From an uncultured Opitutia bacterium (GTDB taxonomy: Bacteria; Verrucomicrobiota; Verrucomicrobiia; Opitutales; Opitutaceae), in assembly GCA_903862955.1 (NCBI GenBank), contig CAIPAH010000003.1, positions 186,001 to 250,000 on the forward strand: a DNA stretch of 64,000 nucleotides, read 5' to 3'. The notes beneath the pieces are model-generated. The model did not search any database and was not told the origin of the DNA. It worked only from the letters and a program-made list of their open reading frames with translations. Below are positions 2,617-44,713 of this stretch, piece by piece. Position 1 is the stretch's first letter. Each line of letters begins with the position of its first letter. A program made the position numbers and the translations under genes.

Positions 2617-2638
2617 GGAGCGGTTACGCGGCGTCGAT

Positions 2639-5453: not shown

Positions 5454-5528
5454 GAGGGCGCTGGGGTGGAGTGGTGAGAATGGAAGTCAGCGGTGGGACG
5501 CCGACGGCGAAGGGCGTAAAATTTGCGG

Positions 5529-6476: not shown

Positions 6477-6479
6477 GGC

Positions 6480-11099: not shown

Positions 11100-11104
11100 C
11101 GCGA

Positions 11105-12474: not shown

Positions 12475-12480
12475 CGGGAA

Positions 12481-15709: not shown

Positions 15710-15721
15710 GACAGGTGGGAG

Positions 15722-16966: not shown

Positions 16967-16968
16967 GA

Positions 16969-29344: not shown

Positions 29345-29396
29345 CGCCGGCGCCGAACCCAAGCGACGGTCGCCCCGGCAAAGCGATCACGCATAT

Positions 29397-29425
29397 TTGC
29401 GATTGCGACCTCTGCGGGGTAAAAG
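29397..29425 (+). promoter_or_regulatory. Candidate internal sigma70-type promoter
   Basis: TTGCGA (29397-29402) and TAAAAG (29420-29425) are separated by exactly 17 bases in the 98-base gap between the two flavoprotein genes. Each hexamer matches four of six consensus bases, so this is weak evidence; the predicted start would leave only a short leader. Confidence 0.25.
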
Positions 29426-29442
29426 CTACATCAAGCTTCCTG

Positions 29443-31002
29443 ATGGATGAGAACCTGCGGACTGACTGGGATGTGATTGTGGTGGGCGGTGCACTCTCCG
29501 GCTCTGCCACGACCTGCCTGCTGCGGCGCCGCAACCCCAAGCTCCGGGTGTTGATCCTCGAACGCACCGACCAGCTCAAGCGCCGCGTGGGCGAGTCGAC
29601 GGTGGAAATCAGTGCCTTCTTTCTTGGCCGTGTGCTGGGACTGACCGAGCACTTGCTCGAAAAGCATCTCCCGAAGCAGGGCATGCGCTTTTGGTTTTCG
29701 AACTCCTCTGCTCGCGCGCTCAACGAGTGCAGCGAGACCGGCCCGCGCTACAATGTCCGGTTGCCCGGCTACCAGGTGGACCGCGCCGTCCTCGACGAGC
29801 ACCTGCTGGCCACGGCCGTGAAGGAAGGCGCGGTGCTGCGCCGTCTCGTCCGCGTGCGGAAGGTGGGGCTTGTCGCGGGTGGAGCGCAAACGGTGGAATG
29901 GGACGACGAGCAGGGCGTCCTGCAGAAAACCACCGCCCGCTGGGTCGTCGATGCCTCGGGTGTGGCGACGCTGCTCGCGCGGCAGGAAGGGTGGCTGCAG
30001 CCCAACACCGCGCATCCGACGGCCACGTGCTGGAGCCGCTGGTCCGGGGTGACGTCGCTGGATGACCGTTCGCTTTTCGAGAAATACCCGTCGTGGTCCA
30101 ACCGCGCCCAGGCGGTACGCTGGACGGCGACCAACCACCTGACCGGCTACGGCTGGTGGGCGTGGATCATTCCGTTGAAGGGCGGCGACGTCAGCATCGG
30201 CGTGGTTTATGACCAGCGCATCATGGAACTGCCCCCGGGGCCGAGTCTCGGCGAGCGGCTGAAGGCGTTCCTGATGACGCATCCCGTCGCGCGCGAAATC
30301 CTCGCGAATGCCACCTACCAGGAAGACGACATGCATTTCCGCCGCAATCTGGCGTATTCCGCGACCACCTTCGCCACCGACGGGGCCGTGCTGGTCGGCG
30401 ACGCCGCCGGTTTCATCGACCCGTTTTATTCGCCGGGCATGGACTGGATTTCGTTTTCCACGAGCGCGGCCGCAGCGCTGATTGGGGACAGTTTCAAGGG
30501 CAAGCCCGTGGCTCCGCGCGTCGAACGCCACAACGCGAATTTCCGCCTGAGCTACGAGCGGTGGTTCCTCGCGCTCTATCGCGACAAGTATTTCTACATG
30601 GGGGATTTCGAGCTCATGACCCTGGCGTTCCGGCTCGACCTCGGCCTGTATTACCTCGGCATCGTCACGCAGCCGTTCAAGCACGGCCCGCGCTACCTTG
30701 AGACTCCGCCATTCGCCCATGCCAAGTCCTACTGGCCCTTTCGCCTGATGGAGCTTTACAACCGGCGCTTGGTTTCGATGGCGCAGAACCGCCAGGAGCG
30801 CGGGGTGTTCGGCCGGCGCAACCACCGCGGCTACTTCGGTTTCATCAGCTACGAATTCAATTCGCGCCTGCCCTGGCGGGTGTTTGGGCTGCTGCTGCTC
30901 TGGCTCGGGCTTGAGCTGCGCGAGGGCTGGCGCACGTGGTTTAAGGCGGCACCCATGCCCGCCGCCATGCCCGCGCCGAAACCGGCTCCGGCGCCGCACT
31001 AA
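29443..31002 (+). CDS. Flavin-dependent halogenase-like oxidoreductase 2
   Basis: 519-residue FAD protein, a distant paralogue of its neighbour. VVGGALSGS (13-21), RVGEST (48-53), Lys78 in PKQG, WAWIIP (239-244) and LVGDAAGFIDPFYSPG. It is about 90 residues longer, with a Pro/Ala-rich C-terminal tail after a hydrophobic segment near 475-490 that could anchor it to the membrane. ATG at 29443 is used because a longer frame upstream overlaps the first flavoprotein. Likely modifies the pigment; halogenase versus oxidase cannot be settled from sequence. Confidence 0.78.
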   Translation: MDENLRTDWDVIVVGGALSGSATTCLLRRRNPKLRVLILERTDQLKRRVGESTVEISAFFLGRVLGLTEHLLEKHLPKQGMRFWFSNSSARALNECSETGPRYNVRLPGYQVDRAVLDEHLLATAVKEGAVLRRLVRVRKVGLVAGGAQTVEWDDEQGVLQKTTARWVVDASGVATLLARQEGWLQPNTAHPTATCWSRWSGVTSLDDRSLFEKYPSWSNRAQAVRWTATNHLTGYGWWAWIIPLKGGDVSIGVVYDQRIMELPPGPSLGERLKAFLMTHPVAREILANATYQEDDMHFRRNLAYSATTFATDGAVLVGDAAGFIDPFYSPGMDWISFSTSAAAALIGDSFKGKPVAPRVERHNANFRLSYERWFLALYRDKYFYMGDFELMTLAFRLDLGLYYLGIVTQPFKHGPRYLETPPFAHAKSYWPFRLMELYNRRLVSMAQNRQERGVFGRRNHRGYFGFISYEFNSRLPWRVFGLLLLWLGLELREGWRTWFKAAPMPAAMPAPKPAPAPH

Positions 31003-31010
31003 TTCCGGCC

Positions 31011-31406
31011 ATGACACCTCCTCATTCGCCCTCCGCCTCTTCCGGCCGCAACGACGCCGTGCAAACCCTGGACCGGCATTTTCCGCCCGAGATTCGCGCG
31101 GCCTACGAGCGTTTTATGCAAACGCGGGTGCCCGCCGATGCCGACACGGTCGTCCTCGCGATCATGCTCGACCACATGCCGGAAAAAGACCGGCGCCCGT
31201 CGACGCCGCCGGCGGACACGCTGACGCTGGTCGCCGACCTGGGCTTCGATTCGGTGGCGATCGCCGAGATGGTGTTTTTCCTCGAGGACCTGTTCGAGGT
31301 GCGCATCAGCAATGACGAGATCCTGCGCGTGCGCACCGTGGGCGACCTCCGGGCCTTTGTGCGGCAGAAACTGGACGCCTCGCCACCGGCGAACCCGCCC
31401 GCATGA
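31011..31406 (+). CDS. Acyl carrier protein with N-terminal extension
   Basis: 131 residues. The carrier domain occupies about residues 65-125 with the phosphopantetheine Ser81 in LGFDSV and a following acidic helix II (AIAEMVFFLEDLF). The first 60 residues are an unusual extension for an ACP. Eight bases after the second flavoprotein stop and overlapping the ketosynthase gene by four bases (ATGA). Carries the growing polyene as a thioester. Confidence 0.88.
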   Translation: MTPPHSPSASSGRNDAVQTLDRHFPPEIRAAYERFMQTRVPADADTVVLAIMLDHMPEKDRRPSTPPADTLTLVADLGFDSVAIAEMVFFLEDLFEVRISNDEILRVRTVGDLRAFVRQKLDASPPANPPA

Positions 31407-32671
31407 GCCGCCACGCGGTCGTCACCGGCCTCGGCTTCATCACGAGCATCGGCAACGACCGCGCTGCCGTGACGGAGAGCCTGCACACCTTGCGGCCGGG
31501 CTTGGAGCGGGTGGAGTTTCTGGGCAACCCGTCGCTCGCCGTGAAGGTGGCGGGCACGATCAAGGATTTCACCGTCGATTCGCCCAGCTGGCGCGATTGG
31601 CGTTACCCGGCGCGTTACACGCTGCCGCGCGAGGCGCTGCGCAGCCTGCCGCCGCACGGGTTGTATGCGATTTGCGCGGTGGAACAGGCGCTCGCGGACA
31701 GCGGGCTCGCCGCGGCGGACCTGACGGACGGCGGCACTGGGCTCTACTGCGCCTCGGCCGGTTCGGCTTTCCTGCTGCACCACCATCTCGCCCACATGCA
31801 TGCCGTGCGCGGCGAGCGCGGCAACCCGATGGGCGTCGTGGCCTCGATCGCCGGCACGCTCAATTTCAACCTCGCGGCGAACTACGGCATTCGTGGCGCC
31901 GTCGGCGGCTTTGCAGCGGCGTGCGCGTCGTCCAGCCACGCGCTCGGCTGTGCGCTCGATGACATCCGCCTCGGCCGCCAGACGCGCATGCTCGTCGTCG
32001 GCGCCGAGGAAGTGAATGCTGAGACGATCCTGCCCTTTGCCGCGATGCGCGCGCTGTCGACGAATCCTGATCCGGCCACGGCGTCGCGGCCCTTTGACCA
32101 GCAGCGGGACGGCTTTGTCGGCGCGGGTGGGGCGGTCTGCCTGATCCTCGAGGAAGCCGAGTCAGCCCGGAAGCGTGGCGTGCCGATCTACGCCGAGTTC
32201 GCTGGCTGGGGCCAGGCGGCGGATGGATTCAATGTGGCTGTCTCGCATCCGGACGGCGCCGGCCTGGCGGAAGCGATTCGGCGGGCCTTGGCGGACGCGG
32301 GCGTCAAACCCGCGGAGATTGGCTACGTCAACGCCCACGCCACGTCGACACCGGCGGGCGACCGCTCGGAGGCGCTGGCCCTGGGCGCGGTGTTCACGAA
32401 GACGGGCGCGCACCCGCAGGTGAGCAGCACGAAGGGCCTGACGGGTCATCCGCTCTCGATGTCTGGCGTGATGGAGGCGGCGTTCTGTGCTCTGGCGATC
32501 CGCGACGGCTTCATTCCCGGCAACGCCAACCTCGTTTCGCCGGATGAGGCCTGCGCGGGCTTGTCGCTGCCGCGAAGCACGGTGGCCGCGGCCCCTGGCA
32601 TCGTTTTGAACAACAGCAGTGGCTTCGGCGGCAGCAACGTGTGCCATGTGTTCAAGCCCACCAAGGCCTGA
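31403..32671 (+). CDS. Beta-ketoacyl-ACP synthase (FabF/KAS II-like), aryl-polyene type
   Basis: 422-residue condensing enzyme. Complete catalytic triad: Cys174 in AACASSS, His312 in NAHATSTPAGD and His349 in KGLTGHP, at FabF spacing. A C-terminal glycine-rich NNSSGFGGSN closes the thiolase fold. It performs decarboxylative condensation of malonyl-ACP with the aryl or polyene chain. Overlaps the ACP gene by four bases. A housekeeping FabF is less likely given its place inside this operon and the lack of other fatty-acid genes. Confidence 0.9.
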   Translation: MSRHAVVTGLGFITSIGNDRAAVTESLHTLRPGLERVEFLGNPSLAVKVAGTIKDFTVDSPSWRDWRYPARYTLPREALRSLPPHGLYAICAVEQALADSGLAAADLTDGGTGLYCASAGSAFLLHHHLAHMHAVRGERGNPMGVVASIAGTLNFNLAANYGIRGAVGGFAAACASSSHALGCALDDIRLGRQTRMLVVGAEEVNAETILPFAAMRALSTNPDPATASRPFDQQRDGFVGAGGAVCLILEEAESARKRGVPIYAEFAGWGQAADGFNVAVSHPDGAGLAEAIRRALADAGVKPAEIGYVNAHATSTPAGDRSEALALGAVFTKTGAHPQVSSTKGLTGHPLSMSGVMEAAFCALAIRDGFIPGNANLVSPDEACAGLSLPRSTVAAAPGIVLNNSSGFGGSNVCHVFKPTKA

Positions 32672-32746
32672 GTTCGAGCAACGGGCACGCAACATTCTCA
32701 GGGCTTGCCGAGCAGCGCATCTGGAACTCAGATGGGGGCTTACAGC

Positions 32747-33022
32747 ATGCCTGACCCTCTAAAGACTAAGCTGAAGCAGCTCATTGTCACCACGCTCAAG
32801 CTCGAGGATGTAAAACCGGAGGACCTGGCCGACGACGAGCCGCTCATTGGCTCAGGCTTGAACCTCGATTCCATCGATGCGCTGGAGCTCGTGGTGACGC
32901 TCGAGAAGGAATTCGGCCTCAAAATCAAGAGCAGCGAGGAATCCCGCGAGGCTCTGGCCAGCGTGGCCCACCTCGCGGAGTTCATTCGCGCCCGAGCCGA
33001 TCCCGCCCGATTGCCCGGCTGA
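32747..33022 (+). CDS. Second acyl carrier protein
   Basis: 91-residue stand-alone ACP with phosphopantetheine Ser42 in LNLDSIDALEL and an acidic helix II. Starts 75 bases after the first ketosynthase; ATG at 32747 preferred over an upstream in-frame start that would add 14 unrelated residues. Aryl-polyene loci commonly encode two ACPs, one for loading the aryl starter and one for chain extension; which is which cannot be told here. Confidence 0.9.
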   Translation: MPDPLKTKLKQLIVTTLKLEDVKPEDLADDEPLIGSGLNLDSIDALELVVTLEKEFGLKIKSSEESREALASVAHLAEFIRARADPARLPG

Positions 33023-33046
33023 TCCGTCGGACCACCCACCGCGCGT

Positions 33047-34153
33047 ATGTCGCCCGCTGCTGCCGTTTGCCTGGAAGCCGCTGGCTGCCTCACCGCCCTC
33101 GGTGATGCGGCGGCCACGCATGCCGCGCTCCTTCGCGGGGAATGCGCCCTGCGACCCGTGCCCGTGCTCGGAACCGATGGCGGAGAAGACGTGCCGCTGG
33201 CCTTGGCGGGCGGACGCGGCCTCGACGAAACGGCGCCGCCGAGCTGGCTGCCGCTGCTCCACACGCTGGCGAAGACCATTCCCGCCGACGCGTGGGGCTC
33301 GCCGGGACGTCCGGTGTTTGTGACCAGCAGTAATTTCGGCGTGGGCAGCCTGCATGCCTTCCGGCGCACCGGCGATCGCGCCCACCTCGCCTACGGCACC
33401 CCGTCGCTGTGCGTCGAGTGGCTCGCGGGCGAACTCGGCTGGGGAACCAACGTGACCACGCTCTCGCATGCCTGCGTGTCCGCTCATCTCGGGTTGCTGC
33501 TCGCGTCGCGGACCTTGCAGGCCGGGCTGGCGGACCGCGCGCTGGTGTTTTCCTTCGATTTCATCAGCCCGTTCGTGGCGGGCGGCTTTCACGCGCTAAA
33601 AATCCTGAACGCGGGATTCCCCGCGCCCTACGCTGATCGGCCTACGGGTTCGATTGGGCTCGGCGATGGCGCCGGATTCGCGGTGCTCAGCCGGGAACGT
33701 GGCGACTTCGCGATTTCCGCCCAGAGCCTGCACAACGAGATGCACCATTTCACCGCCAATCGCGCGGATGGTGCCGGCTTTGCCGCCTGCCTGGCTCCGG
33801 TCCGTGCGGCGGCCAGCGGACGCAAGCTCTGGCTCAAGGGCCACGGGACCGGTACGCTCGAGGCAGGTCGCCTTGAGAGCGCCGCGCTGGCCTCGGCGTT
33901 TCCCGTCGCTCCGCTCGTGTCGTGGAAAGGCAGCCTGGGTCACACGCTGGGCAGTTGCGGACTAGTCGAGCTCGCCCTGGCTACTGCAGCCGTGCGCGCC
34001 GGCCGCGCTCCCGGCACTGTCGGCGGCGCCGCGCCCAGCTTCACGCCTGAGGTGGCGCTCGAGCCCTTCTCCACGGCGGCCTATGACGGCGTCGTGTGTG
34101 CCAGCAATGCGTTTGGCGGTGCCCACGCCGCGTTTCTCCTGACCCATGATTGA
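33047..34153 (+). CDS. Beta-ketoacyl synthase, second (chain-length/KS2 type)
   Basis: 368-residue thiolase-fold protein, more divergent than the first KS. It keeps a full triad: Cys143 in SHACVSAH, His266 in LKGHGTGT and His299 in GSLGHTLGS. Glycine-rich SNAFGG is at the end. Shorter than FabF by about 50 residues. Aryl-polyene systems use KS heterodimers and separate KSs for starter and elongation. Overlaps the following KS-like gene by eight bases. Confidence 0.82.
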   Translation: MSPAAAVCLEAAGCLTALGDAAATHAALLRGECALRPVPVLGTDGGEDVPLALAGGRGLDETAPPSWLPLLHTLAKTIPADAWGSPGRPVFVTSSNFGVGSLHAFRRTGDRAHLAYGTPSLCVEWLAGELGWGTNVTTLSHACVSAHLGLLLASRTLQAGLADRALVFSFDFISPFVAGGFHALKILNAGFPAPYADRPTGSIGLGDGAGFAVLSRERGDFAISAQSLHNEMHHFTANRADGAGFAACLAPVRAAASGRKLWLKGHGTGTLEAGRLESAALASAFPVAPLVSWKGSLGHTLGSCGLVELALATAAVRAGRAPGTVGGAAPSFTPEVALEPFSTAAYDGVVCASNAFGGAHAAFLLTHD

Positions 34154-34799
34154 GCGCTATCTCCATGCCCTGAGTCTGGCGGATCCCGGTAACGAGGATC
34201 CGGCGGCGACGCGCGAGCGGCTGCGGGAGCAATTCCCGAAAGGCGCCACGCGGCGCATGACCCAGCTGGGTCTCCTAGTCGGGGCGTCGCTGAACGAACT
34301 CCAGCCGCGGGCCGAGGATGCGATTGTCTATGCCACGGCCTACGGCGAGAGCCGGACGCTCGAGGCTTACCTCGATAGTTTTCCGTCGGCGAGCCCGACG
34401 CTGTTTCAAACCTCGATTCACCCGAGTGCCGTGCAGCAGGCGATGATCACGCGGCAGAGCGCCGTCGGGGAATTTTTCCCGCTGACGGGCAGGGGACAGC
34501 TTGTCGCCACGGCGCTGCAGACGGCTGTGCTGGCGAATGCGCCGCGCGTGCTGGTGTGCGGCGGCGAAGAGCGGGGGACGTGGCTGCTGGAAAACGGCAT
34601 CGCCAGCGCGCGGGCGTTTGCGTTTGCCCTGGCATTGTCCGCGGAAAAGACGGGCGCTCTCGCGCGGTTGACACTGACGCAGGGCGCGGGCGCCGCGGGA
34701 GAATTGTCCCTGCCGGACTTTTTCGACGCGCTGGTGGCGCGCCGGGCCTTGGAGCAGAGCGTTGGCTGCGGGCTGCGTTTAACCCTCACGTGGACATGA
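34146..34799 (+). CDS. Beta-ketoacyl synthase-like N-terminal domain protein
   Basis: 217-residue protein matching the stand-alone ketoacyl-synthase-like N-terminal domain (Ketoacyl-synt_2) that accompanies aryl-polyene clusters. It has an AIVYATAYGESRTLEAYLDSF-type opening (quoted as pattern only), SIHPSAVQQAM and ALANAPRVLVCGGEE-like region but no Cys-His-His triad, so it is probably a chain-length-factor-like partner of one KS rather than an active enzyme. Overlaps the previous gene by eight bases and the next by four. Confidence 0.75.
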   Translation: MIERYLHALSLADPGNEDPAATRERLREQFPKGATRRMTQLGLLVGASLNELQPRAEDAIVYATAYGESRTLEAYLDSFPSASPTLFQTSIHPSAVQQAMITRQSAVGEFFPLTGRGQLVATALQTAVLANAPRVLVCGGEERGTWLLENGIASARAFAFALALSAEKTGALARLTLTQGAGAAGELSLPDFFDALVARRALEQSVGCGLRLTLTWT

Positions 34800-35679
34800 G
34801 CGGCCCCGCACGCAATCCCGGGCCAGCTGGGGCTTCCAGTTCCTCCGTCGCTGCGACGAATTTCTGCCCGAATTCATCTTCCGTCCGCTGCGAAAGCTGG
34901 GCACAGCCGTGGCAATCGTTGGCATGCCGGGCCAGCGCGCGCACTCGCGGGAGTATCTCACGGTCCTGCACGGCCGTGCACCTCGTTGGAGTGAGGTTTT
35001 CCGGCACTTCTGGGCGTTCGAGGAATTCCTCATGCTGCGCTTTCGCGTGGCGCGGGGAGTTCCGCACCGCGGTGAATTGGCGGCCGATGCCGGAGGCTTT
35101 CGGCAGCTGCTGGCGACGGGTGAGCCGGCTTTGCTGGGGACGTTTCACTTCGGTCACTCAGACCTGACTGGCTTCCTGCTGGGCCGGCAGGAGCACCGCC
35201 GCGTTTACATGATCCGGCAGCGGGTGGGGAATTCGCACGACACGGAAATTCTCGGCGCCGAATTTGCCGAGTGGGTGAGCTTCATCTGGGTCAACGAGGC
35301 GGAGAACCTGCTGTTCGCGCTGAAGGACGCGATCGACGCGGGTGGCTCGGTCGCGTTGAAGTGCGACCGGCTCGAATTCAGCGCGAAGACGGAAGCGTTT
35401 AATTTTCTCGGCGCCCGCCGGTTGTTTCCGTTCACGATCTATCACCTTGCGCTCATCTTCCGCCGGCCCGTGGTGCTGTGCGTCGGCCGGCCGGCCGGGC
35501 CCGGTCTGTCCACGGTGCACAGCTCCCCGTTATTCGTCCCGGACGCCGCGGGCAAGGCGGCCAACCTCGCGCGGGCCCGGGAGCACTTCCAGGAGTTCCT
35601 CACGCGGCTGGAAGCGATGCTGCGGGCCGAACCGGAGCTGTGGTTCAACTTCCTTCCGCTCAACCCCGTGGCGCCATGA
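34796..35679 (+). CDS. LpxL/HtrB-type acyltransferase, apparent 1-base frameshift near its start
   Basis: About 290 residues if intact. The expected ATG at 34796 overlaps the KS-like stop (ATGA), as at most junctions here. However, the conserved N-terminal part of this family (SWGFQFLRRCDEFLP, RPLRKLG) is encoded one phase away from 34825 onward, joining the body of the protein. That phase has an upstream stop at 34780-34782 and no ATG, GTG or TTG before GTG 34909. One missing base near 34817-34825, in a CCCGGGCC run, explains this. H-F-G-H-S-D gives the HX4D acyltransferase motif. In aryl-polyene loci such enzymes attach the polyene to a glycolipid. Translation from GTG 34909 would still give 256 residues. 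Confidence 0.72.
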
Positions 35680-36419
35680 ATCCACTGCCGCGCATTTACC
35701 GGGTGCCAGCCGCGTTGCTTTCGTGGCTCGTTTTTGGACTCGTCAGCCTCGCCCTGAACCTGGGGTGTGTGATCCTGCTGGTGCTCCCGGGGGCCCGGCG
35801 TCGGGGTCCGGCCGCGCGTGGGGCGATCCGCTGGCTGTTCAGCGCGTGGTGCAGCTGGCTGCACGCCACGCGATTGATCTACGTGCGATGGACCGGATTT
35901 ACGCCTGAGGCGCTGGAGGGGCCGGCGGTCTACATTGCCAACCATCCGGGGCTGCTGGATGCGACCTTCATCCTGGCGCGGCTGCCCGACACGATTTGTA
36001 TTTTCAAACCCTCGGTCATGCACAATCCCGCGCTCGGGCCGGCGGCGGTGCTGGCCGGATACGCGTCGGGTGACGCGGGCATCGATGTGATCCGCGCCGT
36101 GGCTGACCGACTTGCGGCCGGGCGGTCGCTGTTGATCTTTCCCGAAGGCACGCGCACCTACGCCGGCACGCAGCTCAATCCGCTCCGGCCGGGCTTTGCG
36201 CTCATCGCGGCCCGCGCGCGGGTGCCCGTGCGCCTGCTGGCGGTTCGCGCCCCGCGGGACCTTTTGCCCAAAGGCCAGCCGTGGTGGCGTGTGCCCCCGC
36301 TGCCGGCCAGCATCGAGGTGGAGTTCCTTGGCGAAGTCGAACCGGGCGCCGCCAGCAATGCCCGGGAATTGACGGCGCTGGCCGCACAGAGACTCTTGGC
36401 GGCGTTGTCCGCCACATGA
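35676..36419 (+). CDS. PlsC-type acyltransferase
   Basis: 247-residue membrane-bound acyltransferase. One or two hydrophobic N-terminal helices (about residues 10-45), then the HX4D motif in NHPGLLD and the substrate motif FPEGTR. The family uses acyl-CoA or acyl-ACP donors on glycerol-phosphate or similar hydroxyls; here it likely makes the lipid acceptor of the pigment. Starts in an ATGA overlap with the LpxL-type gene; shares four bases with the GT2 gene after it. Confidence 0.85.
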   Translation: MNPLPRIYRVPAALLSWLVFGLVSLALNLGCVILLVLPGARRRGPAARGAIRWLFSAWCSWLHATRLIYVRWTGFTPEALEGPAVYIANHPGLLDATFILARLPDTICIFKPSVMHNPALGPAAVLAGYASGDAGIDVIRAVADRLAAGRSLLIFPEGTRTYAGTQLNPLRPGFALIAARARVPVRLLAVRAPRDLLPKGQPWWRVPPLPASIEVEFLGEVEPGAASNARELTALAAQRLLAALSAT

Positions 36420-37177
36420 TGCTTCCGTCTGCCACGCACCTCGTCCTCATCCCGAGCTACAACGCCGGCCCGCGCCTGTTGGAGACGGTGCGCGGCGCGC
36501 TGGACCAGTGGCAACCGGTGTGGGTGGTGGTGGATGGCAGCACGGACGGAAGCGCCGCCGCTGCGCTGGAACTCGCTGAGCGAAATCCCCAAGTGCGGGT
36601 GATCGAGCGTTCCCATAATGGAGGCAAAGGCGCTGCGGTGGCGACCGGCGTGGCGGCCGCGCTTGATGCGGGATTCACGCACGTTTTGACGATGGATTCC
36701 GACGGCCAGCATCCGGCGGATCACATCCCGGAGTTCATGGCGGCGTCGCAGGCGCAGCCCGCGGCTTTGGTGGTGGGACGCCCGATCTTCGGGCCGGAGG
36801 CGCCGCTGGCGCGGCTGCAAGGGCGCAAGCTGAGCGTGTGGCTCGCCCGGGTGGAAATCCTCGGACGCGGCATCGATGACCCGCTGTTTGGCTTTCGCGT
36901 GTATCCGGCCGCCGAGTTGGCACGGGCCTTCGCCGCCACTCGTCGCGCGCGGGGCTTCGACTTTGACCCCGAGATGGCGGTGCGCCTCGTCTGGGCAGGA
37001 GTTCCGACGGTGAATTTGCCGGCGCCCTGCCGCTACCTGGCGAAGGATCAGGGGGGCGTTTCGCACTTCCATTACCTGCGGGACAACCTGAAGCTCATCT
37101 GGCTGCACACCCGCCTGTTGACGCAACTTTTGCTCTGGCGCTGGGTCGGTGTGCTGCGCCGCCGTCGCTCGTCATGA
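36416..37177 (+). CDS. Glycosyltransferase family 2 of aryl-polyene locus
   Basis: 253-residue GT2 enzyme. LVLIPSYNAG, VVDGSTDGS and TMDSDGQHP (metal-binding D-x-D) are present, and the sequence keeps the 'GGKGAAVATG' loop of dolichyl-phosphate-sugar synthase-like members. Probably glycosylates the lipid anchor or polyene head. Start is the first of two adjacent ATG codons in the ATGATG at 36416, overlapping the PlsC-type stop. Confidence 0.85.
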   Translation: MMLPSATHLVLIPSYNAGPRLLETVRGALDQWQPVWVVVDGSTDGSAAAALELAERNPQVRVIERSHNGGKGAAVATGVAAALDAGFTHVLTMDSDGQHPADHIPEFMAASQAQPAALVVGRPIFGPEAPLARLQGRKLSVWLARVEILGRGIDDPLFGFRVYPAAELARAFAATRRARGFDFDPEMAVRLVWAGVPTVNLPAPCRYLAKDQGGVSHFHYLRDNLKLIWLHTRLLTQLLLWRWVGVLRRRRSS

Positions 37178-37842
37178 ACCCTTTCGCGAAGACCCTTGGC
37201 CTCTGCTGCGGTCTGCTGCTGGCCGCACGCGGGGCATCAGCAGCCGACGCGAACCTTCCGGTGGGACCGGAGACGCTGCTGGCCGATCCGGCCCACGACC
37301 CGGCGTGGCGCGAGCTGTTTGTGCGGCTGGCAGTGAGCAAGACCCGGCAGTCGCAGTTCGAGGAGCGGCGTTATTTTTCATTCCGCAAGACGCCCGTCAT
37401 CCTCCAGGGCGAAATCCGCATCGTGCCGGACCGCGGCCTGAGCCTGCGGTATCTCAAACCCGAAGATCGCATCATGATCGTGGATGCACAGGGCCTGTTG
37501 ATGCGCGATGACGAGGGGCACGAACGCGTGGCGCCGGCCGACAGCCGGGCGCGGGCGGTGACCGACGCGCTCGTGAGCGTTCTGCGCTTCGACCTGCCGA
37601 GCCTGGAGAAATCCTTCAGCGTGCATGGGCGGAGCGACGGCGACGCCTGGACGCTCGCCTTCGTGCCCCGCTCGGCGGCGCTGGCCGACCTGGTCGGCGT
37701 GCTGGCAGTGAGCGGGCAGGGTTTTGTGCTCGAGAAGATCGAACTCGTGCGGACTCCCAGCCAGCGCATCGAGATCCTGATCAGCCACACGCAGGAGGAC
37801 GTCATCTTTTCCGGTGATGTCCTCGACCGGTTTTTCCGCTAA
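37174..37842 (+). CDS. LolA-like periplasmic carrier
   Basis: 222 residues with a clear Sec signal peptide (hydrophobic core about residues 8-17, cleavage after ASAA near 24). The rest is a single beta-rich domain of the outer-membrane lipoprotein-carrier type, with no lipobox. Aryl-polyene loci carry a LolA-like gene beside an MMPL exporter, presumably to move the lipid-linked pigment across the periplasm. Shares four bases with the GT2 gene. Confidence 0.8.
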   Translation: MNPFAKTLGLCCGLLLAARGASAADANLPVGPETLLADPAHDPAWRELFVRLAVSKTRQSQFEERRYFSFRKTPVILQGEIRIVPDRGLSLRYLKPEDRIMIVDAQGLLMRDDEGHERVAPADSRARAVTDALVSVLRFDLPSLEKSFSVHGRSDGDAWTLAFVPRSAALADLVGVLAVSGQGFVLEKIELVRTPSQRIEILISHTQEDVIFSGDVLDRFFR

Positions 37843-37851
37843 GCCACCGCC

Positions 37852-40188
37852 GTGGAACCCCGCCGCCAGAAAGCCACCGCCCGGCTGATCCTGATCGCGT
37901 TTGCCGCGCTTTGCATCGGCTGGCTGGCCTGTCTGGACTTTGCCGCCAAGATTTCGACCAACGTGCTGGACCTGATTCCCGCCGCGGAGCAGGCGCCGGA
38001 GCTGGCGCTGATCCGGGGATTTGCGAACGACGTGCAGGCGCGCGTGATGCTGTTTGTGGTGGAGGATCCGGCAACGCCCGGCGTTCCCCCGCGCGCGGCG
38101 GCGCAGCGGCTGGCGGAGGAATTGCGGCGACAGCCACTCTTTGCGGAGGCGGTGGTGATGGGGGACGAAGCGGCTCAGAACGCGCTGGGGCGGCAAATCT
38201 ACGAGCACCGTTTCGAACTGCTGCTGCCCGCCTGGCTGGGACGCCAACACCGCGCCTTCGCTGCGACCGGTCAGCCTGAGGCGAAATTCTCCAACTGGCT
38301 CGCGGAACGTGCGGCGACCGACCTCGAGGCATTTCTGAGCCGGCCCGAGGCGGCGGCGATGCAGGACCTGGCGCTGTCGGACCCGTTGCTGCTGGTGCCG
38401 GGCCTGGCGATGCGTTCGCAGGGGCTGACGTCGGGCGGAGCGGGTGCGGGCGGCCATGCCCTCGTGTGGGCCCGCATCACGGTGTCGCCGCTGGCGGAGG
38501 CAGGGCAGGGGCCGGTGTTTGCGGCGGTGGACTCGGCTTTCGCGCAGGTGAAGGCCACGCATCCGGGCGTCCGCCTGCGCTGGACCGGTATCAATCGTTT
38601 TGCCGCGGCCAGCCGGGCGCGGATCGAATCGGAACTCCGGCTGCTGAACGCCGCGTCGCTACTCGCGGTGCTCGCGGTCAGCTGCATTTTCGTGCGGCGC
38701 ATCTACAAGCTCCTGCACCTCATGCCCGTCATCGCGCTGTCGCTGCTGGGCGCGTGGACGATTGCGACGCTGACCTTCGAGCGGCTCCACATCCTCGTTT
38801 TTGTGATCGGGTCACTGCTGGCGGGCGTCGCCATCGATTACGGCTTCTACATTTTCATGCAGCCGTCGTTGACGCCCGACGAACCCTACCTGAGCAAGCT
38901 GCGACGCCTGCTCAAACCGCTGCTGGCGAGCTGCCTCACCACGGTGATCGGTTTTTCGCTGCTGCTTTTCTCGGAGCTGCCGTTGATCCGGCAGATCGGC
39001 CTTTTCGTCGGCGCTGGACTCCTGTGCGCGCTGGGCGCGGCGATGCTCTACTTTGCGCAGTTGGAACGGCCGCAACTGGAAGGCCGCGAGTGGGGCGCGC
39101 TGGGCCCGGGACGGGCGACACCGTGGCTGCAGCGGAGCCTGCGTTTTCTTTTCGGCGGGGCGATGGCGGTCGCACTGGTCGGTCCCTGGTTGTTGCACTG
39201 GCGCGACGACATCCGCGAGCTCGACATTCCCTCGCCCGAACTCCACGCCAACGAAGCCGAGCTGCGTTCGCTCTTTGGCGAGAATCCGGACAGCGGCGTG
39301 TATTTGACGCAGGGGAGTTCCGCGGCGGAGGCGCGGGAGCATCTCGAGGAATTCCTGGCGGACGAGGCGAAGCTCGCGCCCAAGTCGACGGCTGCGAGCC
39401 TGGGCCTGGTACTGCCGACGGCCGCCGACTGGCAGGCGCTGGGCCCGCGGCTGGGGGAACTGCGGGATTTCGCCCCGGAGTTTCACGAGGCGCTGGAGCG
39501 CCACGGCTTCCTGGCGGATTCCTTCCAGCCCTTTTTTGTGGCGTGGGAGCAAGTGCAACGCCACCCGCCCGACGGCGCGTATGAAGGGCTGGCGAAGTCC
39601 TTGGACGGAATGCTGTCAGGGCCACTCGCGTTGCTCAGCAACCTGCATGGGCCGAATTTCTGGTTCCTGACGATGACCTCGGAGCCCGAGCGCGTGGCGG
39701 TGCCGCCCGCGCTGCACACGGTGGGGACGAGCCAGCTGCAATCGCTCAACACGCTCTTCAGCCGCTACCGCTGGTCGGCGCTGCGGTTGAGCCTGATCGG
39801 ACTGGCGCTCGTGATTGGCAGTGTCTTTGCGATCTATCCGTTCCGCCGGGGAATCCGGATCGCGCTGATCCCAGCCGGCTCGTGCTTTTTTGTGTTCGGG
39901 CTGCTGGGCCTCGCGGGTTCCACGCTGAACCTGTTCAACCTGCTGGGCGCATTCCTCGGGGTCTGCCTTTCGCACAACTACGCGATCTTCTCCTCGGACA
40001 ATGCCAGCGCGGGGACGGCGCCGCCGGTGTCCATCCGTCTTTCGGCGCTCTGCACCGCGGCGTCGTTCGGTGTGCTGGGCTTGAGCCGCATCCCGGTGAT
40101 TCATGCGCTGGGCATGACGGTGGCGTTGATCGTCCTGACCGCGCTGATGGCGGTCGAACTGGAGTCCCTGGCGCGCCGCTCGCGCTGA
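37852..40188 (+). CDS. MMPL/RND-type lipid exporter
   Basis: 778-residue inner-membrane protein with the layout of an RND half-transporter duplicated: one N-terminal helix (about 10-32), a periplasmic domain, a cluster of five helices (near 265-400), a second periplasmic domain and a final cluster of five helices. GTG start at 37852, nine bases after the LolA-like stop. MMPL proteins move lipids and lipid-linked pigments, so it likely exports the finished aryl-polyene lipid with LolA help. Confidence 0.88.
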   Translation: MEPRRQKATARLILIAFAALCIGWLACLDFAAKISTNVLDLIPAAEQAPELALIRGFANDVQARVMLFVVEDPATPGVPPRAAAQRLAEELRRQPLFAEAVVMGDEAAQNALGRQIYEHRFELLLPAWLGRQHRAFAATGQPEAKFSNWLAERAATDLEAFLSRPEAAAMQDLALSDPLLLVPGLAMRSQGLTSGGAGAGGHALVWARITVSPLAEAGQGPVFAAVDSAFAQVKATHPGVRLRWTGINRFAAASRARIESELRLLNAASLLAVLAVSCIFVRRIYKLLHLMPVIALSLLGAWTIATLTFERLHILVFVIGSLLAGVAIDYGFYIFMQPSLTPDEPYLSKLRRLLKPLLASCLTTVIGFSLLLFSELPLIRQIGLFVGAGLLCALGAAMLYFAQLERPQLEGREWGALGPGRATPWLQRSLRFLFGGAMAVALVGPWLLHWRDDIRELDIPSPELHANEAELRSLFGENPDSGVYLTQGSSAAEAREHLEEFLADEAKLAPKSTAASLGLVLPTAADWQALGPRLGELRDFAPEFHEALERHGFLADSFQPFFVAWEQVQRHPPDGAYEGLAKSLDGMLSGPLALLSNLHGPNFWFLTMTSEPERVAVPPALHTVGTSQLQSLNTLFSRYRWSALRLSLIGLALVIGSVFAIYPFRRGIRIALIPAGSCFFVFGLLGLAGSTLNLFNLLGAFLGVCLSHNYAIFSSDNASAGTAPPVSIRLSALCTAASFGVLGLSRIPVIHALGMTVALIVLTALMAVELESLARRSR

Positions 40189-40191
40189 ACC

Positions 40192-41520
40192 ATGGCGACA
40201 ACCCTCCGCAGTGCCTGGGCACACACCCTCCGTGCCAATCCGCATGCCGTGGCGCTCTACGACGCGGCGACGTCCCGCAAGTGGACGAGGTCCGAGCTCG
40301 CCGCGCTGGGATTGGAGTGGGCGCGTGAGCACGGAAAGAGCATCGCCGGGCAGCGGGTGGTGTTTGCCGAGGCGAATGGGCCGGAGTGGTGGCGGGTCTT
40401 TCTTGGGTTGATTGCAAGCGACGCCGTGATCGTCGCGCTGGATCCGGGTGAGCCACCCGCGGCACAGCGCAGCACGGCGGAAGGGATTGGGGCGGCCTCT
40501 CTCTGGCAGGGCGGGCAGCTGCAGATGATGGGGCCCGCACGACGGCGACACGCGAGGGGAACGCGCCTGCTCAAGTTGACGTCCGGCACGACGGGGCGGC
40601 CGCGGGCGCTGCCTTTCACGGATGCGCAACTGCTCGCCGATGGGCGGCAGGTCTGTGCCTCGATGGGGATCCGCGGCGCTGACGTGAATTTTGGCTGCAT
40701 ACCGTTTGGGCACTCCTACGGCTTGGGAAATCTGGTGATTCCGCTTGTGCTGCAAGGCACGCCGATCGTCTCCGGTGCGGCGCTGCTGCCGCAGGGGCTG
40801 GCCGCGGCAATTTCCCAGTGGCGTCCGACGGTGTTTCCCGCGGTGCCCGCCTTGCTCCGGGCAATGGCGGAGGCGGACATTGCTCCGAAGCAGCTTCGCA
40901 GCCTGCGGACGATCATCTCCGCCGGATCGCCGCTCGCGTCCGAGGTGGCGAAGGCATTTTTCCAGAAATTCGACCGCAAGATCCATAATTTCTACGGCTC
41001 CAGCGAAACGGGCGGGATCGTCTATGACCGAACGGGCGACGCCGCGTTGGTGGGAAGCAGCGTCGGCCGGCCGATGCAGGGCGTGAAATTGCACTTCACG
41101 GCGGGTCGCCGCTTTTGGGTGGCGAGTGCGGCGGTGATGGGCCGGGGACGCTTTCGTCCGGCGGACCGGGGCGCGCTGAATGCGCGGGGTGAACTGGTGC
41201 TGCTTGGCCGCGCGGGCCGCATGCTGAAGATTGCGGGCCGGCGGCTCGATCCGGCGGAGATTGAGAGCGCGCTGCGCCAGCTGCCGGGGGTCCATGATGC
41301 TCATGTGGCGGCCCATGGCACGAGGGCTGATGCGCTGGCGGCCGTGGTGGCGGGCGGAGTCGAGGGGACGGAATTGCGCGAACTACTACGCCCGCGGCTG
41401 GCGCCGTGGAAAATTCCCAAGAAGATCGTCGTCGTGCGCCGCTTTCCCCTGACGGCGCGCGGCAAGCCGGACGTTGGGCGCCTGCGGGCCCTGCTGGCGG
41501 ACAGTGACGCGGGCGCGTGA
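40192..41520 (+). CDS. AMP-dependent aryl/acyl ligase (ANL family)
   Basis: 442-residue adenylating enzyme, short for the family. The P-loop is TSGTTGRPRA near residue 129, the YGSSETGG core at about 266-273, and the C-terminal catalytic Lys lies in ARGKPD near 422. The reduced N-terminal domain is typical of aryl-polyene ligases. It probably activates a hydroxybenzoate starter and passes it to an ACP. Begins three bases after the MMPL stop; converges with the chorismatase gene across a 10-base gap. Confidence 0.87.
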   Translation: MATTLRSAWAHTLRANPHAVALYDAATSRKWTRSELAALGLEWAREHGKSIAGQRVVFAEANGPEWWRVFLGLIASDAVIVALDPGEPPAAQRSTAEGIGAASLWQGGQLQMMGPARRRHARGTRLLKLTSGTTGRPRALPFTDAQLLADGRQVCASMGIRGADVNFGCIPFGHSYGLGNLVIPLVLQGTPIVSGAALLPQGLAAAISQWRPTVFPAVPALLRAMAEADIAPKQLRSLRTIISAGSPLASEVAKAFFQKFDRKIHNFYGSSETGGIVYDRTGDAALVGSSVGRPMQGVKLHFTAGRRFWVASAAVMGRGRFRPADRGALNARGELVLLGRAGRMLKIAGRRLDPAEIESALRQLPGVHDAHVAAHGTRADALAAVVAGGVEGTELRELLRPRLAPWKIPKKIVVVRRFPLTARGKPDVGRLRALLADSDAGA

Positions 41521-41530
41521 GTCGCGCCGC

Positions 41531-42472
41531 CTAGCCGATCAGCGTGGCCTCGATCTCGACAACGAGTTCGGCCCGACAGATGTCCGCCTGGAGGTATGTG
41601 ACGCGGTCGCCCGGCTGGAACAGGCTGCGCTGAAGCCGCTCTTGCACGGTCTTCAGGCCGTCGGCGTGTCGGAGGTAGACTTTGAAATGTCGCTGGAGAT
41701 TTCGCCGGGCTCCGAGAGCCTCGCCGAGGCCCGCGGCTTGGGAAATCAGCCGGAGATTGTCGAGAGTGCACTCGAGTTGGCCGGCGAGGTCGCCCGGCGC
41801 GACGGACTGGTGACCCTTGATGGCGGCAGTTCCGGAGATGAACGTCAGGGAGCGCTGGGGCAGGCTGACGACCGTGGCGCGGGAGAAACTCGGGGCGCGG
41901 GGGCCGTGTTCGAGCGGATAGAGATAGGCGGGAACCTGCGCGGGATTTTCACAGTGATGCGGCGTCACCGCGCCCGCGACGAAGACCAGCGACAGGCAGT
42001 GGTCCGCCGTGCCGACGCCCGACGCCGCCGGCAACACGCGCGGAAAACCCGCGCCGGCTTCGGCCTCAAAGGCCAGCGAACGGCCCTGGCAGAAGGCGCG
42101 GTAATTCTCGAAGCCGTCGACCAAGGCGTTGATCCGCGGCACGTAATTCCAAATGCGGTAAAGATGATGGCCGCGGACGGCGGTTAGCACGCGGCGATAA
42201 AGCTCGTGGGCCTGCTGGGCCAGGGTGCGGCCATCGATGACCGGCTCCGACGCACAACCGAGAAGCAATTCGCCGCTGATGAACAGCTGCAGACCTTCGA
42301 CCAACGGTCCCCGGGCTACCGGGGCGAAAAGCATTTCTCGCGCTTCGCCGGCGAGCAGCGGCATGGTCAGTTCCAGACCTGCCCCGCGGGCGAGTGGCAG
42401 GACAAGCGTGGCCGGACGGCCAAATTCCACGGCGAAGGGTTCTTGGGTAACAACGGCAGTGGCGGCAGGCAT
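41531..42472 (-). CDS. Chorismatase, FkbO/Hyg5/XanB2 family
   Basis: 313-residue cytosolic enzyme. Family signatures are all seen: YRIWNYVPRIN (105-115), ENYRAFCQGR (122-131), SGTAAIKGHQS (213-223), FKVYLRH (263-269) and ICRAELVVEIEA (298-309), the last in a Rid/YjgF-like C-terminal half carrying the catalytic Glu. Relatives convert chorismate to 3-hydroxybenzoate, 4-hydroxybenzoate or a dihydroxycyclohexadiene acid plus pyruvate. In Xanthomonas, XanB2 supplies the aromatic starter for xanthomonadin. Its convergent place beside the aryl ligase implies the same job here; which hydroxybenzoate cannot be decided from sequence. Confidence 0.88.
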   Translation of the reverse strand: MPAATAVVTQEPFAVEFGRPATLVLPLARGAGLELTMPLLAGEAREMLFAPVARGPLVEGLQLFISGELLLGCASEPVIDGRTLAQQAHELYRRVLTAVRGHHLYRIWNYVPRINALVDGFENYRAFCQGRSLAFEAEAGAGFPRVLPAASGVGTADHCLSLVFVAGAVTPHHCENPAQVPAYLYPLEHGPRAPSFSRATVVSLPQRSLTFISGTAAIKGHQSVAPGDLAGQLECTLDNLRLISQAAGLGEALGARRNLQRHFKVYLRHADGLKTVQERLQRSLFQPGDRVTYLQADICRAELVVEIEATLIG

Positions 42473-42676
42473 GCGGGAATTGTGCTGGGGTCAGGCGGAT
42501 CAGGCGGATGAGTCTGGACCGGGAAATCCCGGCGCGGTGCGCGGGAATTTCGCTGCCGGAAAACGCGCCGGAAGAACCATGCCTGAGGGAAGTCCCGCGG
42601 CGGAATCCAGCAAGCCCATTTTCCCGGTGATTTGCCTTGTCGGGGCGAAACGGGGCCGCCGGAATGCGGGCGCGGC

Positions 42677-43936
42677 ATGACGACCTTTGAGTTATCAGTG
42701 CGGTTCTTCCTGCAGTTGGCCGCCGTGCTGGTCGTCTGCCGGCTCGTTTGCTGGGCGGCCGTGCGCCTCGGCCAGCCCCCCGTCGTGGGCGAAATGATTG
42801 CGGGCGTGGTGCTGGGCCCGTCGCTGTTCGGCTATTTCCTGCCGCATCTGCAGCAGACACTGTTTCCGCCGGCGTCGCGCCCAATCCTCTTTGCCGGGGC
42901 GCAAATTGGTTTGGTGCTCTACATGTTCACCGTCGGGTTGGATTTCCGCTTCGAGCTCATGCGATCGCGGCTGCGCAGTGCCCTGGCCATCTCGGCCTCG
43001 GGGATTGTGGCACCGTTTGCGCTGGGCTGCGGACTCGCGTGGTATCTTTTCAGCGTGGGTGGATTCTTCCCGCCGGGCGTGACCGCGTTTCAGGCTGTGC
43101 CCTTCATGGGGGCGGCGATGGCGATCACGGCGTTTCCCATGCTGGCCCGCATCATTTTCGAACGGGGGCTGACGGGCACAACCGTGGGTGCGTTGGCGCT
43201 GGCGGCGGGTTCGATTGACGACGCCGCCGCGTGGGGCGTGCTGGCGCTCGTGCTGGCGAGCCTCGGACGCGATCCGTGGATTGCGGTGCTGGCGTTTGGC
43301 GGCAGCGCGGTCTTCCTCACCGTCGTTTTCACGGTGGGTCGGAAGGTGCTTGCGATGATCTCAGCCTATGCGGCGCGTGACGATGCGGCGGAACGGGTGG
43401 CGACGGCGTGGGTGATGGTGCTGCTGATGCTGGCCGCGTGGTTCACCGACACGATCCGGCTGTATGCGGTCTTCGGCGCGTTCTTCATGGGTGCGGCGAT
43501 GCCGCGTGGTCCGTTCGCGACGCGGCTGCAGACGCTGATCGAACCGCTCACGTCCAGCCTGCTGCTGCCGTTGTTCTTCATTTACTCCGGACTCAACACG
43601 CGCTTCGACCTGGTCAACGGCCCGACGCTGTGGCTGGTCGCATTCGCGGTCCTTGCGGCGGCGGTGCTGGGCAAGGCCGGGGCGTGTTATGCGGCGGCCC
43701 GCCTGTGCGGCGAGACGCACCGCGAGGCGATGGGGATTGGCTCGCTCATGAATGCCCGGGGCCTGATGGAACTCATCATCCTCAACATCGGGCTCGAGCG
43801 AGGTGTCATCACGCCGACGCTGTTCACGGTGCTGGTGTTCATGGCCATCGTGACGACGCTGATGGCCACGCCGATGTTCAACCGGTTTTACCGGCAGAGC
43901 GATGGCTCGCGTTTCGTGGCCGCCAAGGCCGCCTGA
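42677..43936 (+). CDS. CPA2-family cation:proton antiporter
   Basis: 419-residue membrane protein with about twelve transmembrane helices in the Na+/H+ exchanger fold. QPPVVGEMIAGVVLGPSL (near 33-50) is the CPA2 helix II pattern, and a SIDDAAAWG segment carries the paired acidic residues of the ion-binding site. No C-terminal TrkA domains, unlike KefB/KefC. ATG at 42677 preferred over an in-frame upstream start. Divergent from the chorismatase across 204 bases. Confidence 0.9.
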   Translation: MTTFELSVRFFLQLAAVLVVCRLVCWAAVRLGQPPVVGEMIAGVVLGPSLFGYFLPHLQQTLFPPASRPILFAGAQIGLVLYMFTVGLDFRFELMRSRLRSALAISASGIVAPFALGCGLAWYLFSVGGFFPPGVTAFQAVPFMGAAMAITAFPMLARIIFERGLTGTTVGALALAAGSIDDAAAWGVLALVLASLGRDPWIAVLAFGGSAVFLTVVFTVGRKVLAMISAYAARDDAAERVATAWVMVLLMLAAWFTDTIRLYAVFGAFFMGAAMPRGPFATRLQTLIEPLTSSLLLPLFFIYSGLNTRFDLVNGPTLWLVAFAVLAAAVLGKAGACYAAARLCGETHREAMGIGSLMNARGLMELIILNIGLERGVITPTLFTVLVFMAIVTTLMATPMFNRFYRQSDGSRFVAAKAA

Positions 43937-43951: not shown

Positions 43952-44713
43952 CTAGCGAAACTGGCTGGGGTCCGGCAGGACGCAGCGGTAGCCCAGGCCT
44001 GAGAGTGCCTCCAGCAACAGGGCGATGGCGCGGACGCGCACGGCGGGATGCAGGCTGGGACCTTCGTGCATGAGGATGATGGCCCCGGGGCGGAGTTTGC
44101 GCAGGACGTGGGCGACCACGCGTTCGTGACTCCGGACGAGGACGTCACCGCTGCGAATCGACCAGCCCACGCAGCGCAGCTGGCGCGCGGCGAGCGCCGC
44201 GGGCAGGAGCAGGTGCTTGATGCCGACCGGCGGACGGAACCAGCGCGGACGAATCCCAGACGGGCGCAGGGTGTCGATCGCGTCGTCGAGTTCGCGGCTC
44301 AGTCGAGCGGGCGAGGCGCACCAGAACGTACCGACGGGGTGGGTTTGCGTGTGGTGGGCGATTTCGTGGCCGCGCCGGGCGATGTCGGCGATCAGCTTGG
44401 GGCAGCGCTTGGCGCGTTCGCCGATGACAAAAAAGGTCGCCTTGGCCCCGAAGCGATCGAGGAGATCGAGGATTTGCGGCGTGTCGGTTTCATCCGGGCC
44501 GTCGTCGATGGTCAGCCAGACCTCGGCGCGGGGCGTGTTGAAGCGCGTCACCACGGGGCAGAGGCCTTGGCCGGAGGGCACGAACAGGTGGTAGAGCACC
44601 CACAGATCCGGCACGAAATACACGATGGCGGCCGCCCACCATTGGCCGAACACTGCCAGCGTCAGGGCGATGGCCTTGAGGGCGAGCAGGACGATGAGGG
44701 TGGAACGCGCCAT
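43952..44713 (-). CDS. Polysaccharide deacetylase (NodB homology domain)
   Basis: 253 residues. One or two N-terminal hydrophobic segments (about 5-40) anchor a NodB domain: LTIDDGPD (motif 1, catalytic base Asp), HEIAHHTQTH (motif 2, metal His), RWFRPPVG (motif 3) and a late LMHEG (motif 5). The family removes acetyl or other N-linked groups from glycans. Last gene of the XseB-Dxs-deacetylase run, 47 bases after dxs, and convergent with the antiporter. Aryl-polyene regions sometimes have such a gene, but here it belongs to a different operon. Confidence 0.85.
   Translation of the reverse strand: MARSTLIVLLALKAIALTLAVFGQWWAAAIVYFVPDLWVLYHLFVPSGQGLCPVVTRFNTPRAEVWLTIDDGPDETDTPQILDLLDRFGAKATFFVIGERAKRCPKLIADIARRGHEIAHHTQTHPVGTFWCASPARLSRELDDAIDTLRPSGIRPRWFRPPVGIKHLLLPAALAARQLRCVGWSIRSGDVLVRSHERVVAHVLRKLRPGAIILMHEGPSLHPAVRVRAIALLLEALSGLGYRCVLPDPSQFR

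Follow-up and report, generated by a model that had tools for sequence, protein, structure and literature searches.

In a 64,000-nucleotide stretch of DNA from an uncultured Opitutia bacterium of the family Opitutaceae (contig CAIPAH010000003.1; the whole stretch is referred to here as the window), a gene for a chorismatase converges with a gene for an adenosine monophosphate (AMP)-dependent ligase, and the ligase gene closes a cluster of the aryl polyene type. Our results suggest that the pair probably feeds this cluster with an activated hydroxybenzoate derived from chorismate, with other steps of the pathway supplied in trans. The starter-unit module is real, conserved and looks intact. The principle of feeding an aryl pigment from a chorismatase is widespread and already known, as in Xanthomonas and Azoarcus; new here are its occurrence in Verrucomicrobiota, a gene layout that is usually convergent, and the absence of reductive genes. 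Chorismatase-fed aryl pigments would thus be extended from Proteobacteria to Verrucomicrobiota, with the enzyme and the pathway co-inherited near-perfectly. The two genes of the pair are:

40192..41520, plus strand: AMP-dependent ligase of 442 amino acids, with a role like that of ApeH, ArcT and XanA2 by analogy; closes the plus-strand series
41531..42472, minus strand: chorismatase of 313 amino acids; Glu306 corresponds to E334 of Hyg5, and Gly152, Gly214 and Cys299 correspond to G173, G240 and C327 of Hyg5

The convergent pair and its conservation

The chorismatase reading frame contains the motifs SGTAAIKGHQS and CRAELVVEIEA, on which a first-pass annotation of the window had recognised the enzyme, and its identification is borne out by sequence and fold matches. 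The Pfam model for the chorismatase N-terminus (PF21168) matches with an E-value of 1.9e-20 and 73.5 bits, above the cut-off of 27, and the NCBIfam model for FkbO/Hyg5 chorismatases (TIGR04444) with an E-value of 1e-53 and 182.7 bits. In phmmer searches the enzyme matches Hyg5 (5ag3; E 4.8e-38) and FkbO (4bps; E 5.4e-35). An AlphaFold2 model, with a mean predicted local distance difference test score (pLDDT) of 82.9, matches chains of 5ag3, 5a3k and 4bps with E-values of 2e-20 to 6e-19 and template modelling (TM) scores of 0.74-0.78; the following structural match reaches E 1.6e-4 and TM 0.23. Judged by sequence and predicted fold, the convincing solved relatives of the window enzyme are Hyg5 and FkbO. 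The catalytic Glu at the E334 site of Hyg5 is present in all 124 aligned rows, but the pLDDT is below 50 at residues 303-306, which include Glu306, so that the model is silent on active-site geometry. The chorismatase is single-copy in the window genome (3.6 Mb, searched at E 0.001).

The chorismatase and the ligase converge, as the annotation had described, and their stop codons are 10 bp apart. The ligase is a member of the Pfam AMP-binding family with an SGTTG motif and a C-terminal GK motif. Benzoate-coenzyme A (CoA) ligases came out on top in a search of the PDB (82 bits), with acyl-CoA synthases close behind (81.7 bits). The proposed independence of the route from UbiC also held: no match to PF04345, the chorismate lyase (UbiC) model, was found in the whole window genome, and an E. 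coli control was positive.

The pairing of the two genes is conserved. Our sample of chorismatase homologues comprised 80 named loci, the best 80 of 510, of which 68 were counted as Verrucomicrobiota (L069 by its position in the tree). In 56 of these 68 loci the ligase is convergent with the chorismatase within 3.5 kb. The remaining 12 include three with another arrangement, four that end less than 1.5 kb from the chorismatase and five without a ligase, three of which have 10 kb of room and two less than 1.8 kb. Within the available flanks of the 68 loci, homologues of the cluster's MMPL exporter, family 2 glycosyltransferase (GT2) and second ketosynthase (KS2) were found in 48, 41 and 40, respectively. 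Four order-level relatives from other families keep the order of the series from the second acyl carrier protein (ACP2) to the ligase, with LolA undetected in one. The coupling of the chorismatase to an aryl-polyene-type cluster is supported.

In a search of 57 whole genomes (E < 1e-40 for the chorismatase, E < 1e-20 for KS2), 18 had both genes, one had KS2 alone, none had the chorismatase alone and 38 had neither (Fisher p 6e-14, uncorrected for shared ancestry). Two genomes with distant homologues (E 2e-6 and 3e-5) were excluded from the carrier count. Within the window's own genus both genes are present in four genomes and neither in eight. In 17 of the 18 carriers the two genes lie on one contig; in G018 they are on separate contigs. 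The distance matrices of chorismatase, ligase, KS2 and GT2 are correlated over 38 loci (r 0.76-0.90, with no control for species), a correlation that none of 999 permutations reached.

A second, distant chorismatase-like family is common across Verrucomicrobiota, with matches to TIGR04444 at E-values of about 1e-7 to 1e-20 (for example G013:C2:175563-176147). On a plasmid of Streptomyces goshikiensis (L181:9611-12123) a chorismatase gene stands directly before that of an AMP-binding protein, with an enediyne chromoprotein gene nearby; the enzyme pairing is the same, the pathway another.

Chorismatase type and predicted product

At the sites of residues 173, 240 and 327 of Hyg5 the window enzyme has Gly, Gly and Cys, like Hyg5, whereas FkbO (4bps) has Gly, Ala and Ala; 104 of the 124 rows have Ala, Gly and Cys. 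Gly, Gly and Cys are the three characteristic residues of CH-II enzymes, which form 3-hydroxybenzoate (3-HBA) (PMC7170507), and Gly152, Gly214 and Cys299 agree with them at all three sites. The Ala/Ala of CH-I (FkbO) at the G240 and C327 sites is replaced in the window enzyme by Gly214 and Cys299. The annotation had named membership of the FkbO group as one result that would tell against a hydroxybenzoate starter, and in these residues the enzyme is unlike FkbO.

The phylogeny is less simple. We made a quick tree of 123 rows, with an arbitrary root, in which Hyg5 and FkbO were entered as segments of 223 and 225 residues and from which XanB2 and ArcB are absent by name. The window enzyme and those of other Opitutaceae fall within an 83-row branch (Shimodaira-Hasegawa-like approximate likelihood ratio test support 100) that consists of the window sequence, 70 Verrucomicrobiota sequences, 11 cyanobacterial sequences and one gammaproteobacterial sequence. 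Outside it are Hyg5 and FkbO, two actinobacterial enzymes encoded on plasmids, one enzyme from a Caballeronia plasmid and the other 35 proteobacterial rows. The proteobacterial pigment-linked relatives thus do not fall within the window branch. On these sequences the Verrucomicrobiota-cyanobacteria branch is distinct. Placement of the window enzyme alone with the FkbO/Hyg5 rows was rejected by the approximately unbiased (AU) test (p 0.0104), whereas the whole window branch as their sister was not (p 0.856). The latter tree scores 29 log units above the free quick tree, which is therefore not the optimum. The phylogenetic check that the annotation proposed thus sets the window enzyme by itself apart from the FkbO/Hyg5 rows, and a sister relationship of its whole branch to them is still allowed.

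An FkbO-type enzyme that makes dihydroxycyclohexadienoic acid would be compatible with the similarity in fold and with this sister relationship. It is nevertheless highly improbable, given that the window enzyme shares Gly and Cys at the G240 and C327 sites with Hyg5 and the other rows of its group, and given the rejection of the window alone with FkbO/Hyg5, although that result partly reflects its tie to the Opitutaceae relatives.

We consider it unlikely, though less so, that the enzyme resembles XanB2 and forms 3- as well as 4-hydroxybenzoate (4-HBA), with 4-HBA as the pigment starter as in aryl polyenes of the E. coli type. At the Hyg5-173 site Ala, which we took as XanB2-like although XanB2 is outside the alignment, is carried by 65 of 71 members of the Verrucomicrobiota set, counting the window, and by 31 of the 35 proteobacterial sequences. 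A 4-HBA starter would also fit what is described for known systems: 4-HBA is adenylated by ApeH of the APEXd cluster and is the predicted starter of the E. coli pathway (PMC8253772), and ArcT of Azoarcus sp. BH72 adenylates several 4-substituted benzoates as well as 3-HBA (PMC3949708). Against this, the window enzyme itself has Gly at the site, the CH-II trait of 3-HBA formers (PMC7170507). In the results given for Azoarcus, moreover, the pigment arcuflavin incorporates 4-fluoro-3-HBA but no fluorinated 4-HBA (PMC3949708), and a relative of the window organism that uses menaquinone is not known to require 4-HBA in quinone synthesis.

On the quick tree the residue at the Hyg5-173 site changed no fewer than 12 times, and it varies among the nearest relatives of the window enzyme; given this lability we rejected its residue as a predictor of the product. 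It has also been reported that the reaction of a chorismatase cannot be accurately predicted from an alignment of sequences alone (PMC3949708). The active-site comparison that the annotation suggested therefore gave the Gly/Gly/Cys of Hyg5, with a first site too labile to tell 3- from 4-HBA. As the predicted product, 3-HBA is a better guess than a mixture of 3- and 4-HBA. The set of enzymes assembled here is of wider use in that it varies at a residue used to separate 3-HBA-forming chorismatases from others.

Five of the 11 cyanobacterial chorismatase loci (L088, L090, L095, L096 and L097) have a weak AMP-ligase match on the same strand (23-28% identity). These five loci have no match to the cluster ketosynthases, and therefore another product may be made there.

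The cluster and its known counterparts

The ligase is the final gene of a close-packed plus-strand series of 13 kb (28058-41520) of the aryl polyene type. The other genes of the cluster, which we take as far as 44713, are:

28058..29344, plus strand: flavin adenine dinucleotide (FAD)-dependent halogenase-like protein, with WxWxIP as WFWIIP
29437..31002, plus strand: second FAD-dependent halogenase-like protein, with WxWxIP as WAWIIP; the reading frame opens at 29158 and the start is uncertain
31011..31406, plus strand: acyl carrier protein 1 (ACP1), GFDS
31403..32671, plus strand: ketosynthase KS1, FabF-like, with ACASS and NAHAT motifs; ApeO-like elongating role by analogy
32705..33022, plus strand: acyl carrier protein 2 (ACP2), NLDS
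33047..34153, plus strand: ketosynthase KS2; ApeR-like initiating role by analogy
34146..34799, plus strand: short ketosynthase-like (KS-N-type) protein; ApeC/ArcJ-like role by analogy
34909..35679, plus strand: conserved cluster protein without a Pfam match; putatively lysophospholipid-acyltransferase-like by our own reading of the sequence
35673..36419, plus strand: PlsC-type acyltransferase (PF01553)
36419..37177, plus strand: family 2 glycosyltransferase (GT2)
37174..37842, plus strand: LolA-like carrier; PF19574 is above its cut-off and the flexirubin LolA2 model far under its own
37852..40188, plus strand: MMPL/RND exporter
42632..43936, plus strand: Na+/H+ exchanger, a possible arcG counterpart, with a homologue in 11 of the 80 named loci
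43952..44713, minus strand: polysaccharide deacetylase, a possible arcN counterpart, with a homologue in 35 of the 80 named loci

We take the WxWxIP motif to be a mark of FAD-dependent halogenase-like proteins. The short ketosynthase-like protein scores 23.2 bits with Ketoacyl-synt_2, slightly below the Pfam cut-off of 25. All of the gene types of aryl polyene and xanthomonadin clusters that we list here, namely ligase, ketosynthase, ketosynthase partner, acyl carrier protein, acyltransferase, LolA and exporter, are present. The roles named after ApeO, ApeC and ApeR are assigned by analogy with the E. coli system (PMC8253772).

The closest parallel described is arcuflavin of Azoarcus sp. BH72, in which ArcB makes 3-HBA from chorismate and a chorismatase and an AMP-ligase likewise serve an aryl polyene (PMC3949708). 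By annotation the window also has likely counterparts of the Azoarcus halogenase, glycosyltransferase, acyltransferases, LolA, exporter, acyl carrier protein, ketosynthase and KS-N protein, as well as of the Na+/H+ antiporter (arcG) and the polysaccharide deacetylase (arcN) (PMC3949708). They differ in that the Azoarcus genes are in two loci, with the ligase apart from the chorismatase, whereas the window pair is convergent, and in that Azoarcus has a ketoreductase (arcH), dehydratases (arcI and arcS) and a resorcinol cluster, whereas the window has no recognisable ketoreductase or dehydratase (PMC3949708). Xanthomonadin of Xanthomonas is likewise built by a type II polyketide system on 3-HBA derived from a chorismatase, XanB2, and is brominated, while the window has halogenase-like genes (PMC3949708). 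XanB2 belongs to another phylum and also gives 4-HBA for ubiquinone (PMC3949708), in contrast to the window genome with no UbiC match and a relative that uses menaquinone-7 (MK-7). The E. coli APEEc cluster likewise has three ketosynthase-type proteins, two acyl carrier proteins, acyl-ACP synthetase, LolA, RND exporter, acyltransferase and glycosyltransferase, but its predicted starter is 4-HBA from UbiC, and a ketoreductase, two dehydratases and a thioesterase are in the cluster (PMC8253772). The CH-II enzymes Hyg5 and Nat-Hyg5 share the fold, the catalytic Glu and Gly/Gly/Cys with the window enzyme; they serve other polyketides and depsipeptides, whereas the window enzyme sits among those of Verrucomicrobiota and cyanobacteria.

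The annotation's statement that only in Xanthomonas-type systems does such a chorismatase feed an aryl polyene is too restrictive. The Azoarcus enzymes ArcB and ArcT have been characterised, and xanthomonadin-like clusters were also reported in Dechloromonas, Variovorax and Sideroxydans (PMC3949708). We also looked at 36 proteobacterial regions, picked from matches in 73 of 369 genomes (chiefly from the top of the ranking, where some were passed over, with some lower ones included; one is UBA7803). The chorismatase is accompanied by at least two other cluster gene types in 24 of them and by a halogenase-like gene only in one, and 11 have the chorismatase only. Aryl polyene clusters have already been predicted in Verrucomicrobiota (e.g. 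PMC12193912). In the open-access literature that we searched, however, we found no paper that reports a link of these clusters to a chorismatase. Neither Verrucomicrobia nor Opitutus is mentioned in the main text of Schoner et al. 2014, which does report XanB2 homologues outside Proteobacteria.

A cultured member of the family, Congregicoccus parvus ASA1 (G024), has the chorismatase, the ligase and the polyene genes (L179), with the MMPL gene in L193. MK-7 is its dominant quinone, antiSMASH gave it an 'arylpolyene' cluster, and its colonies are whitish-yellow, turning slightly yellow (PMC12193912).

The remaining window genes that we scanned are housekeeping or exopolysaccharide-like. The exopolysaccharide-like region (1312-20861) has glycosyltransferases, methyltransferases, a hexapeptide transferase, an ABC-2 permease and a large asparagine synthase/glycosyltransferase protein.

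Reductive steps and the product of the proposed pathway

Several observations weigh against a pigment pathway fed by this pair. The 182.7 bits of the chorismatase are below the curated TIGR04444 cut-off of 325 bits, a cut-off exceeded in none of the 194 Verrucomicrobiota genomes searched. The best NCBIfam model for the ligase is a long-chain fatty-acid-CoA ligase (137 bits), and the benzoate-CoA ligase model gives 108 bits, both below cut-off; since the PDB and NCBIfam matches diverge, aryl specificity rests on context. No characterised enzyme is among the sampled rows of the window branch, and kinship does not give the product. The convergence is found in only two of the four order-level relatives, while of the other two one has a same-strand pair and one has the chorismatase at the far end, beside a halogenase-like gene. 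The genome with KS2 alone (G013) lacks a close chorismatase, though its contig ends inside the MMPL gene, and it has a distant chorismatase homologue elsewhere. We know of no pigment on record for the window organism. Lastly, a scan of the 16 genes between 28058 and 44713 gave no match to a ketoreductase, a dehydratase or a thioesterase, and one gene matched nothing. The annotation missed this lack of a ketoreductase and dehydratase in the cluster.

The lack extends beyond the window. Ten more genes beside the G015 cluster gave no match to a ketoreductase of the short-chain dehydrogenase/reductase (SDR) family, a FabA-like dehydratase or a thioesterase, one of them having no match at all. An Opitutaceae SDR probe was positive in two of 90 partly overlapping Verrucomicrobiota loci, in one of which (L036) the SDR gene directly adjoins the chorismatase, versus nine of the 36 proteobacterial regions. 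A thioesterase probe was positive in none of the 90 versus four of the 36; a dehydratase probe was negative in both sets and hence uninformative. With three ketosynthase-type proteins and two acyl carrier proteins and no recognisable reductive genes, the cluster must be supplied from elsewhere or make another product. Either way it shows that an aryl-polyene-type cluster can occur in nature with no recognisable reductive enzymes encoded within it.

Because the cluster's own ketoreductase and dehydratase are missing, the product might be an aryl polyketide and not a fully reduced and dehydrated polyene, a reading with which the negative searches and the probe counts above agree. We regard it as distinctly unlikely: the remaining gene set is of the aryl polyene type, no cyclase or aromatase match was seen, and supply in trans is possible from a genome with three FabA-like genes. 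One of these genes is in a locus (L201:7624-13820; G000:C23) with an ACP-dehydratase fusion, a ketosynthase 57% identical to KS1, an SDR and a glycosyltransferase, and with a thioesterase adjoining. Within the genus, identity of the fusion is 86-95%, and 43 of the 57 genomes have it at near full length (two of these with one internal stop codon): 16 of 18 chorismatase carriers and 27 of 39 non-carriers. Because it is common with and without the chorismatase, the locus looks like core lipid metabolism and not a pigment-specific one; it is the best candidate in the genome for a source in trans. An unlinked second pigment locus with ketoreductase and dehydratase, as in Azoarcus, for which the fusion had been the candidate, was rejected on these counts. 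No ApeI-like dehydratase was found in the window genome.

For the pathway that we favour, from the chorismatase-ligase pair to an aryl-polyene-type product, we infer the catalytic steps as follows. The chorismatase would convert chorismate to hydroxybenzoate and pyruvate, most likely giving 3-HBA and perhaps some 4-HBA, and the ligase would adenylate the hydroxybenzoate and attach it to one of the cluster's acyl carrier proteins. The chain would be started by KS2 and extended with malonyl units by KS1 and the short ketosynthase-like partner, giving an aryl-polyene-type acid. As neither is recognisable in the cluster, ketoreductase and dehydratase would be supplied in trans. LolA, the MMPL exporter, the acyltransferases and the glycosyltransferase would anchor the product and shift it toward the outer membrane. 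Halogenation of the product by one or both FAD enzymes is possible. The product should be a yellow aryl-polyene-type pigment with a hydroxybenzoate starter. More tentatively, and as a possibility that we do not hold to be the likelier one, we speculate that Verrucomicrobiota and cyanobacteria have a chorismatase lineage of their own, and that in Opitutales a reduced aryl polyene machinery borrows the ketoreductase and dehydratase of the core lipid locus and makes pigments unlike xanthomonadins and flexirubins.

Another locus of the window genome (L200:1872-11138; G000:C27) has ketosynthase, acyl carrier protein, FAD enzyme, FabA-like, FabI-like, OleA-like and OleB-like genes, all named from our own reading of the sequence except FabA, and is perhaps a hydrocarbon or polyunsaturated lipid locus. 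A search of the window genome for resorcinol genes with DarB gave one partial match (E 4e-8), to a gene that reads like FabH. Among the Verrucomicrobiota stretches searched, DarA and DarB were found in L189 alone. There (L189:3054-9702; G026:C77, the contig of L070) an Opitutales chorismatase cluster has DarB-like, DarA-like, BtrH-like, ATP-binding cassette permease and B12-radical S-adenosylmethionine genes, which suggests a polyene-dialkylresorcinol hybrid in Verrucomicrobiota.

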